From contig CAMCMB010000030.1 of the NCBI GenBank assembly GCA_945875845.1, positions 1 to 64,000 on the forward strand: a DNA stretch of 64,000 nucleotides, given 5' to 3'. The translations under genes and the position numbers were made by a program. The stretch is from Pirellula staleyi DSM 6068 (GTDB taxonomy: Bacteria; Planctomycetota; Planctomycetia; Pirellulales; Pirellulaceae). The notes beneath the pieces were generated by a model. It had not been told where the DNA came from, ran no database searches, and worked only from the letters and a program-made list of their open reading frames with translations. Below, one piece after another: positions 58,898 through 63,159 of this stretch (positions are counted from its first letter, which is position 1; the number at the start of each line of letters is the position of its first letter).

Positions 58898-59407
58898 TCA
58901 AGCGTATTCTGGGTGAATCTTGACGAATTCGTGGATTCGGTTTTTGGCTGACTCTCGAACCTTTTGCTCAAGCAAATCTTGATAGCCTGTCAATGTGCCA
59001 AAAACTTCCATAATCGGTGAAATGATACCGAGGGCTTGGTCGGCCCAGGTTTCGAAATCGCATGTGTCGTTCTGGACTCGAATCAAACCGTCTTCAAACT
59101 GAAAATCCGAGTTGATCTTGTTGTGGACATGTCGTGCAGATGACGTTGGCTCGCGCTGGAATTCGTAGTCGCATTCCCAATTGACTTTGCCTGTCACATC
59201 ATCCGCTGTCACGTCGCGATACATGACTCGAATGCCGCCTTCCCTCGCACATAGCATATGCCACATGGCACGGACCTGCTTATCTCTGAGGTCGAACCCA
59301 ATGTCCTTGAACTCCGTTTGAGGATGCAAGCACTCTTGCATGGTTCGGAAGTCGCCATAGGCAAGTGCGCCAAAAAATCGGTGAAGCGTCTGTGCGTTTT
59401 TGTGCAT
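58898..59407 (-). CDS. NTF2-like/SnoaL-like protein
   Basis: 'LHRFFGALAYGDFRTMQECLHPQTEFKDIGFDLRDKQVRAMWHMLC' typical of SnoaL-like fold. Confidence 0.75.
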   Translation of the reverse strand: MHKNAQTLHRFFGALAYGDFRTMQECLHPQTEFKDIGFDLRDKQVRAMWHMLCAREGGIRVMYRDVTADDVTGKVNWECDYEFQREPTSSARHVHNKINSDFQFEDGLIRVQNDTCDFETWADQALGIISPIMEVFGTLTGYQDLLEQKVRESAKNRIHEFVKIHPEYA

Positions 59408-59420
59408 TTAGTTTCTCGTT

Positions 59421-60371
59421 CTATTGAATCCTCTTTTTGGCGGATTCGTGAATGATCGGTTTTGACGCCCCGTTTGGTAGCTCGTGAGGAGAGCGATCCA
59501 TACGACCATTAATCCGATCGAAAAAAGGATAATCTTTCCAGCCGTGAATCTGACCGCATCTCTGCCAACTCTTGTCAACTCGCACATCATCATGATCGGC
59601 CCAACCTTTTATTGGAAACAGGCCGGTAGAAAAGGCCTCGGTAAGCATGTACCACAGTGCGATCATTCTCCGACGATATTGCTGATCCTGTTCTTGATCA
59701 TCTTTCCATCCGCCGCCGATATCGGCATGGTTGCCGCCCATCCACACTTCTTTGATTTTTGTTTCTCCAGGGTTCGTCGCGATCGCATACGTTGGAGCGT
59801 AAACACTCCGATCCTCGTGCATGGCGACTAAATGAACGACATTTCGAACAATACTGGGGATAGCAAGATCATCAATCCGATCATGAAACTGTTTGCGATA
59901 GCCGAGATACGACGTATTGCTCATCGCTAATCCAGGCAGACCCATTGAAGCCACCGTGTCAAAGATCCCCATGAATGGAACTTCTATACGATTTTCCCGA
60001 ACAAACGAATCCGATTCAAGCTTCTTCGCGACCAACCGAGCTGTTGCAGCTCCACGACTAAATCCAAAAATAAAAATTCGATCCCCCGACTTGGCATTCT
60101 CATGAATTGCAGAGAATGCTTCATCTACCTTGGCATCAACTTGCAGGCCAAACCAACCGTCGATGTTGTCTCCCCAATCGTTGTCTGTACCTACCCCACG
60201 CTGATAAACGAGCTGTTGCTGATCAGACTTTTCTAGAAGCCCCCACATTCGAGCAATATTCGTCGATTCTTCTTGGACCAGAACGGCAGGAGCGGTCGAA
60301 GAGGCGGCATTTACTGGTTGATTCGAATTGTTCCCAGTGCCGTCCAGCAGAAGGACAAGGTTCTTAGGCAT
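59421..60371 (-). CDS. DUF2235 alpha/beta-hydrolase-like protein
   Basis: 'LVLLLDGTGNN', 'RIFIFGFSRGAATARLVAKKL', 'MGIFDTVASMG'. Confidence 0.9.
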   Translation of the reverse strand: MPKNLVLLLDGTGNNSNQPVNAASSTAPAVLVQEESTNIARMWGLLEKSDQQQLVYQRGVGTDNDWGDNIDGWFGLQVDAKVDEAFSAIHENAKSGDRIFIFGFSRGAATARLVAKKLESDSFVRENRIEVPFMGIFDTVASMGLPGLAMSNTSYLGYRKQFHDRIDDLAIPSIVRNVVHLVAMHEDRSVYAPTYAIATNPGETKIKEVWMGGNHADIGGGWKDDQEQDQQYRRRMIALWYMLTEAFSTGLFPIKGWADHDDVRVDKSWQRCGQIHGWKDYPFFDRINGRMDRSPHELPNGASKPIIHESAKKRIQ

Positions 60372-60393
60372 CGCTTTTCTAGTTCCGTAAGTG

Positions 60394-63159
60394 TCAAAAG
60401 TACTTTTTCAGAAACGCTATGGATGAGGAGAAGGATTTTTGCTGGTCAGCCAACGACCAGTCAGCATCCGGAAGTTGGGGCAAAAACTCCCTCGCACGCT
60501 TTTGACCTGGATGCCCGGAACCAGAGTATGCCGTTTGATCAAATTCGCAGGCAACACCCGCGACCTTTAACCAGGACTCAAGTTCAACACTCTCCGAGAA
60601 CTTCACGATACCATCTTTATCCTTTAGGCTGCGTTTCATGGCTTGCCGCCCCGAGACTGTTTCGAAGTCGTACGCGAGGCGACCGATCGCGAAGACGGGT
60701 TGGTACGTCGCTGCTCCGCCACCACATCCACAACCGGATGGTGTTACGCTAGTTTGGGATCTGACGGATGGTGACGCAGCGGCCGGAACGACAAGTGATT
60801 CTAGTACTTGTTGTGCTTTCGAGACTGCGGGATTCTCGCGGGTGGAACACGAGGGAGTGACCACAGTCTCGGGGGAGCCCTCAACGTTTTGTGGTTCGAT
60901 CCTAATTGCTGTTTCTCCGAATCTAAGGGTAGTGATGGAATGAGTGATAGAAGGCCTCCCTGCGAGTAGTCGACGACAATCGACTGTTTCCTGAATGTCA
61001 CACCCTAAAGCAGACGTGACAATTGCCTGTCCCACTTCCATCCCGGAAGGTCGAACTCCAGACTTGAGTTGCATGCTGAGTAACAGGGCAGCAACGCCAC
61101 TCACAATTGGCGTAGCGAAACTGGTCCCTGAATTGACGGAAGTTTGCCCCGATGGGCTTGCGCCAAGTATGTTTTCGCCGACAGCAAGCACACCCTGCTT
61201 GATATATTTCTGCCCCCAATTACTAAACTGTAGCGGCTCCCCGGTGAAAGACATTGCACCAACTGTCAGCACTGATGGCAAAGCACGTGGAACGTGAAGA
61301 CAATCGCACCCTTCATTGCCTGCAGCGGCAACAACGAGTATTCCCTTCTTATCGCATTTGGAAATCGCTTGCTTAAGTGCAGGCTGTGCGTCTCCAGACT
61401 CGGAGAACTGCCCACCGCTTGTGTTGATGACCGCTTCAGCGTTCAGCTTCTTTGAATAATCAACTGACTGATTAATCGCTTTCGCAAGGTTCGCCTGTGA
61501 GCAAGGTTCGACAGTTCCATCGAATCGAGTTCGATAGATCGGGATCGCAACGCCGCTGCATTGAGGTGCAATTCCTTTAACAGGGCTTTGGTGGTTTCCA
61601 AAGATTACACTAGCAATATGCGTTCCATGCTCCGTGGCAGCGTCTGTTCCGACAACTCCGTCACCGAGTGCCGTTAGTTTGCTGCCATTGAAAGCTGGAT
61701 GCGACAGATCAACCGGCCCGTCAAGAATTGCGATGCAAACTCGCGGGTCACCGAGTGTTTCGCCCCAAAGCTCACGCAAACCGGGAATCTCCGCGACGTC
61801 AGTCGCAGTGCGGGATGACATTGCCACCGAACCGACTTCTGCAGCCGCAGGCAAGACAAAACTCGAAGCGGCTGTCGGTTGGTTCTGCTCGCGAACGGCG
61901 GTAACACAGGGGCAGGTAACCGCTTCCGCAACCGTTCCTGGTGAACCTACGATTTTTCTTGCCGCTTCAATTGCGGCCTCGATGTCCTCGGGAGTATTGA
62001 ACGGACCTACACTGAATCGCACGGTTCCCTGTTGTTCAATCGTGCCGAGCGAGCGATGCATCAGGGCGGAACATTGAAAACCGCCACGAACTTGAATTCG
62101 AAATTCCTCTTCGAGCCGTTTGGCAACCGAAGGTGCGGCTTGATCGGCGAACGTTACGCTCACAACGCCGATGCGATCTTCTGACGACTTTGGGCCGTAA
62201 ACGGTTACTCCAGGGATGTTCGACAAACCTGCCATCAACTGATCGGTCAATTGGATGGCGTGTTGGCGAATATCGACGAGCCCACGCTGAAGAACGTATT
62301 CAATCCCAGCCCCAAGACCAATGATCCCAGGCGCGTTGTGGCTGCCCGACTCATATTTTTCCGGAAGTGTTTCCGGTTGGTCTTCGCTCGAACTAGCACT
62401 GCCCGTTCCGCCCTGCCGGACAGAGTCGAGCAACTCTTCGACACCAGGTCGAATGTAAAGGATGCCCGTTCCCAGCGGTCCGAGTAGCCCTTTGTGTCCA
62501 GGTGCAGCGACTAGGTCGGCACCGATTTCCGAAACAGACACGGGGATGTGCCCCAAAGTCTGAGCGGCATCGACAAGGAACAGAACGCCATGCTCACGAG
62601 CAATACAACCGATTTCCACCACTGGTTGCAAAGCGCCAGTTACGTTCGAGGCGTGAATTGCAACGATGAGTTTCGTGTTCGGACGAATCGCAACTCGTAT
62701 GTCCTCGGGACCAACTACACCAAACTCATTGCAGGCAACGCGTGTGACTTCGACTCCGTGACGCTTCTCAAGGCTACGTAGAGGGCGGAGTACAGAATTG
62801 TGCTCGAGATCCGTCGTGACTACGTGGTCGCCTGGTTTGAGGATGCCGTGAATTGCCAGGTTGAGTGAATCTGTGCCGTTGAGCGTGAAGATGATTCGAT
62901 TTGGACTTTCGGCTCCGATTAGGCGGGCGACTGCCGCTCTTGTCTTCTCTACCGCTTCGCGAACGTCGTTGGCTTCCGCGTAGGCGCTTCGGCCGACCGA
63001 AACGCCGAGCCGCCGCTGGTAATCATCGACGATGTCGCAGACCATCGTTGGCTTTGGCCAACTGGTCGCAGCATTATCGAGATAGACCCGCGAACGATTC
63101 ATGCTCATCTCCAACAAAAATGACCGGTCAAAACACACGCAGGCAGATCTATTGCCCAT
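60394..63159 (-). CDS. Fusion: group-II-like cysteine desulfurase + PatA/PatG-type (cyanobactin maturation) S8 subtilisin with PatG-like C-terminal segment
   Basis: 'VYLDNAATSWPKP', PLP Lys 'APGHKGLLGPLG', active Cys 'RGGFQCSALMHRSLGT'; then 'IPGLRELWGETLGDPRVCIAILDGPVDLSHP', 'EHGTHIASVIFG', 'SGTSFATPIVSGVAALLLS', 'GCDCLHVPRALPSVLTVGAM', 'GCGCGGGAATYQPVFAIGRLAYDFETVSGRQAM'. Confidence 0.9.
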   Translation of the reverse strand: MGNRSACVCFDRSFLLEMSMNRSRVYLDNAATSWPKPTMVCDIVDDYQRRLGVSVGRSAYAEANDVREAVEKTRAAVARLIGAESPNRIIFTLNGTDSLNLAIHGILKPGDHVVTTDLEHNSVLRPLRSLEKRHGVEVTRVACNEFGVVGPEDIRVAIRPNTKLIVAIHASNVTGALQPVVEIGCIAREHGVLFLVDAAQTLGHIPVSVSEIGADLVAAPGHKGLLGPLGTGILYIRPGVEELLDSVRQGGTGSASSSEDQPETLPEKYESGSHNAPGIIGLGAGIEYVLQRGLVDIRQHAIQLTDQLMAGLSNIPGVTVYGPKSSEDRIGVVSVTFADQAAPSVAKRLEEEFRIQVRGGFQCSALMHRSLGTIEQQGTVRFSVGPFNTPEDIEAAIEAARKIVGSPGTVAEAVTCPCVTAVREQNQPTAASSFVLPAAAEVGSVAMSSRTATDVAEIPGLRELWGETLGDPRVCIAILDGPVDLSHPAFNGSKLTALGDGVVGTDAATEHGTHIASVIFGNHQSPVKGIAPQCSGVAIPIYRTRFDGTVEPCSQANLAKAINQSVDYSKKLNAEAVINTSGGQFSESGDAQPALKQAISKCDKKGILVVAAAGNEGCDCLHVPRALPSVLTVGAMSFTGEPLQFSNWGQKYIKQGVLAVGENILGASPSGQTSVNSGTSFATPIVSGVAALLLSMQLKSGVRPSGMEVGQAIVTSALGCDIQETVDCRRLLAGRPSITHSITTLRFGETAIRIEPQNVEGSPETVVTPSCSTRENPAVSKAQQVLESLVVPAAASPSVRSQTSVTPSGCGCGGGAATYQPVFAIGRLAYDFETVSGRQAMKRSLKDKDGIVKFSESVELESWLKVAGVACEFDQTAYSGSGHPGQKRAREFLPQLPDADWSLADQQKSFSSSIAFLKKYF

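Follow-up and report, generated by a model that had tools for sequence, protein, structure and literature searches.

PatG is composed of a thiazoline oxidase, an S8 macrocyclase and a DUF, with the tailoring oxidase N-terminal to the S8-DUF module, and a YcaO cyclodehydratase is a feature of the azoline-bearing majority of cyanobactin pathways. Tailoring domains known to be fused to PatG or PatA are an FMN dehydrogenase and a methyltransferase (PMC4603692), and the published cleavage consensus of PatA is G(L/V)E(A/P)S (PMC10885120). An S8 protease near short putative precursors, as in the loci described below, is also seen in group VI of the cyanobacterial S8-peptidase bacteriocin clusters; that group's definition also includes genes for a C39 ABC transporter and SurA, and its S8 protease is not evidently tied to the leader type or the PLP domain considered here (PMC3140520). 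No description of a PLP enzyme fused to PatA or PatG was found in the literature searched, which mostly excluded subscription RiPP papers, and we provisionally regard both such a fusion and the YcaO-less peptide family discussed below as undescribed.

The stretch of DNA analyzed here (the window; 64 kb of a contig of Pirellula staleyi DSM 6068) contains, on its minus strand from 63159 to 60394, an uninterrupted 921-codon ORF in which a PLP domain is joined to an S8 protease. The 921-aa ORF of the original prediction is real, and its strand, which had not been given, can now be stated. Searching other planctomycetes for the same fusion, as had been suggested at that time, yielded a second genome, that of Pirellula sp. 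CoA8_C32 (G022; loci L064/L045), in which the protease half is divergent. This sister fusion, of 1154 aa, has complete PatG_D and PatG_C domains and scores 482 bits against TIGR03895, above the cut-off of 421. Because homology to the sister stops at 63101, and because the sister N-terminus (MLKRSRVYL) aligns to M18/M20, the true start of the window fusion is probably at one of these methionines (about 63102-63108), and the initial 17-19 codons of the ORF are probably untranslated. An AlphaFold model of the 921-aa protein, built from a 10-row alignment, has pLDDT values of mostly 70-92 in the S8 domain; the PLP domain and tail are poor (mean 52.5).

The N-terminal class V PLP domain (61951..63102, minus strand; residues 20-403) belongs to the TIGR01977 cysteine-desulfurase family. 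The domain is complete, as had been claimed: residues 25-403 give 415 bits against TIGR01977, for which the cut-off is 377, and there is a PF00266 match with E=8e-94; against the SufS, IscS, NifS, SclA and DndA profiles it falls far below each family's cut-off. PADLOC matches to DndA, SspA and subtilase were considered as signs of a defense system and set aside as generic domain matches because the DndA score is far below its NCBIfam cut-off. All of the PLP active-site residues are kept, namely H120 (EHNS), D197 (DAAQ), K223 (GHK; 62491-62493, minus strand), C363 (mobile loop; 62071-62073, minus strand) and R381. K223 is the Schiff-base lysine that had been recognized in GHKGLLGP, and the predicted persulfide-type cysteine is C363 in GGFQC. 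R381 and the remaining residues of the free-amino-acid pocket are retained, and this pocket would fit free Cys or Sec as the substrate; nothing in it points positively to a peptide acceptor. Stand-alone TIGR01977 cysteine desulfurases, which are common in this planctomycete order, are up to 57% identical to the window domain, have the same active-site residues and, like it, score above the family cut-off. The window domain differs from them in its cysteine loop, which reads FQCSAL instead of the usual LHCAP (one relative has FQCAP), and in being joined to the protease by a 50-aa Cys-containing linker. This linker (61786..61950, minus strand), with its CPC motif (C416, C418), is common to both fusions and absent from stand-alone PLP proteins.

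The protease domain itself (60940..61785, minus strand; residues 459-740) has the D/H/S triad that was originally predicted, as D480, H511 and S680, none of which varies across the alignment. The opening section of TIGR03895, the PatA/PatG family, is matched by residues 511-753 with 298 bits, which does not reach the curated cut-off of 421 bits. The best PDB match of the domain is the PatA-type N-terminal cyanobactin protease 4h6w (E 4e-86), followed by other PatA-type structures, PatG macrocyclases (~1e-43) and generic subtilisins (1e-21 and weaker). Asp and His are separated by 31 residues, and the insert that PatG macrocyclases have between them is absent, leaving a ~38-residue gap against 4h6x. 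A tree built from 99 S8 domains places the window protein well inside the PatA/PatG set, across a 100/100 branch from two generic S8 rows, one of which is from the window's own genome. Within that set, the branch formed by the PatA and PatG proteins of canonical cyanobactin pathways does not include it; its position is, tentatively, beside the planctomycete stand-alone proteins L063, L105 and L111 (support 84/86). The TIGR03895 score, the 4h6w match and the tree position bear out the assignment to PatA/PatG instead of generic subtilisins; the phylogeny, in which a generic S8 placement was to count against this assignment, favors PatA/PatG and specifically PatA. Taken together, these comparisons strongly suggest that the window protease is of the PatA (leader-removing) type.

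Similarity to the PatA-type proteases (4h6w, 4h6v/3zxx/3zxy; TIGR03895) lies in the S8 domain without the macrocyclase insert. The sister copy also has a PatG_D/PatG_C tail, and the putative substrates show a GVxP(S) site as well as leaders resembling LPxQ. In contrast to PatA-type systems, however, the fusions carry an N-terminal PLP domain in a genome that has neither YcaO nor a second (PatG) protease, in place of short cassettes the precursors have cores that are long and rich in Cys, and the window copy is devoid of C-terminal domains. The arrangement is like that of PatG in that a tailoring enzyme is N-terminal to the same S8-DUF module, but a PLP desulfurase replaces the FMN oxidase, there is no insert between Asp and His, and the tree branch is a separate one.

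Downstream of the protease domain, the window protein has a poorly conserved linker ending in VTPSGCGCGGG (60700..60939, minus strand), delimited by alignment of the window and sister proteins and by a survey of Cys clusters. It is followed by the start of the PatG_D region (VFAIGRLAYDF...; 60619..60699, minus strand), which alignment with L063 and the sister protein shows to be broken off after ~27 residues; these residues are all that is left of the PatG-like tail in the original prediction. After VFAIGRLAYDFETVSGRQAMKRSLK, at about residue 847, the protein turns into the end of a dienelactone hydrolase (PF01738). This remnant (60394..60618, minus strand; residues 848-921) comprises the final ~73 codons and stop of the hydrolase, in frame with the protease gene, and is 79% identical over 73 aa to an intact 240-aa gene in another genome, G019. 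The window DNA from 58898 to 60617 is 82% identical to the corresponding G019 locus (L043), unbroken from the SnoaL and Tle1-like genes to 60617. The gene for the Tle1-like alpha/beta hydrolase (59421..60371, minus strand; PF09994 E=6e-48; synteny with L043/L046), which is the neighbor of the dienelactone hydrolase in G019, marks this ancestral context and is outside the system. Neither PF18047 (PatG_D) nor PF18065 (PatG_C) was found in the window protein, and the whole window genome yielded no PF18065 match and no second PatG-type protein. Moreover, the missing PatG C-terminus and the hydrolase N-terminus are both absent from the rest of this 99.95% complete genome, which makes a deletion or insertion event at the 3' junction more likely than misassembly. 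In the reading favored here, the end of the hydrolase gene has taken the place, via deletion, of the PatG C-terminal domains and presumably of the precursor array as well.

No LPxQ-type or other precursor-like ORF was found in the 64-kb window, and two precursor profile searches of the window genome gave only matches with E above 0.2. The same searches recovered the G022 peptides described below at E 8e-9 to 3e-23, a result that checks the search and is not new evidence because those peptides are among the model rows. The best leader-like match in the window's own genome (G000:C34) was rejected when inspection gave no MxLP Cys-rich ORF. YcaO (PF02624) is absent genome-wide from both the window genome and G022, with control genomes being positive, and so the lack of YcaO noted originally for the window extends to the whole genome. 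The absence of both precursor-like ORFs and YcaO marks the window copy, on the present gene content, as an apparent orphan and C-terminally truncated member, and the loss of the PatG domains and of the presumed precursor array implies that this copy is probably impaired or orphan; we consider the chances that it has lost its function to be evenly balanced. Only slightly less probable is that it is a decaying pseudogene, deletion-fused to the hydrolase remnant and now functionless. The loss of PatG_D and PatG_C, the score below the TIGR03895 cut-off, and the absence of precursors and of a second PatG-type protein are all consistent with such decay, although the 921 codons are free of stops and the active sites of both the PLP and protease domains are intact. 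In addition, the hydrolase tail has a dN/dS of 0.31, and not 1, a value that is obtained on only 73 codons and mostly reflects pre-fusion time.

The sister locus has a different composition. Six ORFs of 63-125 aa, all with M[KR]LP starts, begin 18 bp behind the fusion in G022; five of them have 7-9 Cys, one of these five being a group-XII-like phospholipase A2. Across S8-PatG loci, M.LP ORFs are found 0-600 bp downstream in 32 of 42 cases; the opposite strand has them in 1 of 42 and the upstream side in 4 of 34, position and strand being the enrichment controls because the ORFs were collected with a motif containing LP. Behind stand-alone S8-PatG genes, this signature is seen in planctomycetes, cyanobacteria, proteobacteria, acidobacteria and Bacteroidota. 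Many of the precursor-like ORFs begin with MxLPxQxxPVxR, closely resembling cyanobactin precursor leaders, and the known precursor families in NCBIfam and Pfam give only sub-threshold leader matches (TIGR03678, TIGR04446 and TIGR04220), except for PatB-like proteins in canonical cyanobactin clusters. At least 4 Cys are present in 42 of 50 precursor-like ORFs (PatB-like proteins left out), and G[VIL]x[PA][SAQ] occurs in 20 of the 50 precursors when 1.6 are expected by shuffling (maximum of 7 in 1000), a figure that is independent of the selecting motif. The G[VIL]x[PA]S form of this motif is like the PatA consensus. One core class is recognizable across planctomycetes and Mesorhizobium, and both planctomycetes and alphaproteobacteria encode the same kinds of cores next to proteases without a PLP domain, implying that such peptides can be made without one. 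The RiPP-like pathway proposed in the original prediction gains support for the sister locus, with its precursor array, and for the S8-PatG family, but not for the window, where precursors are absent and the PatG domains have been lost.

Several other features of these loci were observed. S8-PatG genes with tandem Cys-rich precursor-like ORFs make up 79 loci (L064-L142) in many phyla, many of them apparently outside canonical cyanobactin clusters, with several core classes reappearing across planctomycetes, proteobacteria and cyanobacteria. Phospholipase-A2-like proteins with the MKLP leader of the small Cys-rich peptides are encoded both in the planctomycete G022 (L045 8892-9269) and in a desulfobulb (L072), ~1.3 kb past the S8-PatG gene, and it seems that complete small enzymes can carry this leader as well. 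A census of 47 neighboring genes at some 20 S8-PatG loci revealed only kinases, TPR proteins and a few VWA/AAA domains, and no modifying enzyme or transporter that recurs. At one locus (L047 2794-3915, G033), a stand-alone S8-PatG gene is closely preceded by a class-I aminotransferase-like gene of the same orientation.

The fusion is present in 2 of the 241 genomes of the family, with no third being found. Stand-alone TIGR01977 PLP genes are common in these 241 genomes and account for most of the family hits, and stand-alone S8-PatG genes are present in at least seven of them. The PLP fusion is missing from all 78 of the other S8-PatG loci drawn from the genome collection, the viral contigs scanned contain no relatives, and tblastn against plasmids gave no record with both halves. 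DNA identity between the two fusions is about 80% in the first PLP half, about 93% for residues 187-488 (window 61696-62601) and 54% in the protease, a mosaic pattern suggesting that alleles recombined after the gene had already become fused. A serine recombinase gene is situated ~0.8 kb upstream of the sister fusion; together with small flanking genes directly upstream (L045 1642-4108, G022), it may mark a mobile element. It is conceivable, if rather unlikely, that the fusion is fortuitous, in that coexisting genes were joined by recombination and the PLP domain is a general Cys/Sec lyase unrelated to the peptides, with the protease acting as in stand-alone S8-PatG proteins. The separate occurrence of the two stand-alone genes agrees with this idea, as do the observations that the genus Pirellula otherwise has only a PLP paralogue of ~37-46% identity and that a PLP gene is lacking within 8 kb of most stand-alone S8-PatG genes whose precursors are equally rich in Cys. 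Nevertheless, the join persists in two genomes even though the protease halves are only ~51% identical, the CPC linker is conserved, and dN/dS for the PLP half (~0.20 between the two fusions) indicates that it is under purifying selection.

The Cys cluster that was predicted to follow the protease is present as CGCGGG at residues ~809-814. Unlike the CPC linker, which is conserved in both fusions and is not part of stand-alone PLP proteins, the CGC cluster also occurs in PLP-less S8-PatG relatives (at least 2 Cys in 12 of 26 proteins) and is absent from canonical cyanobactin PatA, so that it goes with Cys-rich peptide systems and not with the PLP domain. The V[TSL]P[SA]xCxC stretch in S8-PatG linkers (window 60718-60747, residues 805-814) resembles the GVxPSxC of the substrates, and on the basis of this resemblance could be a pseudo-substrate, self-binding or self-cleavage site. 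Conserved cysteines on either side of the protease domain in both fusions might instead suggest that the PLP domain regulates the protease, with cleavage switched on or off by cysteine supply through a persulfide, either at C363 or at the CPC/CGC cysteines, while the peptide stays unsulfurated; we regard this as improbable, given that the CGC cluster is not tied to the PLP domain. Least probable is that the 3' junction (window ~60617) is an assembly chimera. Although the tail is from another gene family and the draft genome has 149 contigs, the displaced gene parts are nowhere else in the assembly, the join is in frame, and the PLP-S8 join is confirmed independently by G022, which upholds that join against the earlier concern over an assembly or frame artefact and leaves an artefact at the 3' join unlikely.

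We return to the reading that we favor, by a modest degree, in which a cysteine-desulfurase-type PLP enzyme and a PatA-type S8 leader protease form a lineage-specific fusion that works as follows. The sister protease would recognize the leader and cut the precursors after a GVx[PA]-type site, so that the M[KR]LP leader is removed and the core, mostly Cys-rich, is released; cleavage of the M[KR]LP peptides by the fusion protease is likely. The PLP domain would most probably use free cysteine as its sulfur source and hold the sulfur as a persulfide on C363, and this sulfur might then be passed, perhaps via the linker cysteines of CPC and CGC, to core cysteines or a related acceptor. Transfer to the peptides is speculative, and the sulfur could alternatively end on the CPC/CGC cysteines or in a general sulfur pool. 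Still more tentative is the idea of a bifunctional RiPP maturase in which the desulfurase sulfurates core Cys (as persulfide, polysulfide or other S-insertion) in one chain with the PatA-type releasing protease. It is similarly speculative that such a maturase would represent a YcaO-independent sulfur-tailoring branch of a wider PatA-associated peptide family in several phyla.

These results mean that a PatA/PatG protease module is common to several phyla together with distinct, mostly Cys-rich precursor-like peptides. Even if sulfur is not transferred, the leader and cleavage-site signature makes such peptides simple to find, through an M.LP start immediately after an S8-PatG gene. The N-terminal tailoring domain of the PatA/PatG module can be replaced by a sulfur-mobilizing enzyme and, if sulfur transfer does take place, the fusion would constitute a new YcaO-free route for sulfur into ribosomal peptides.
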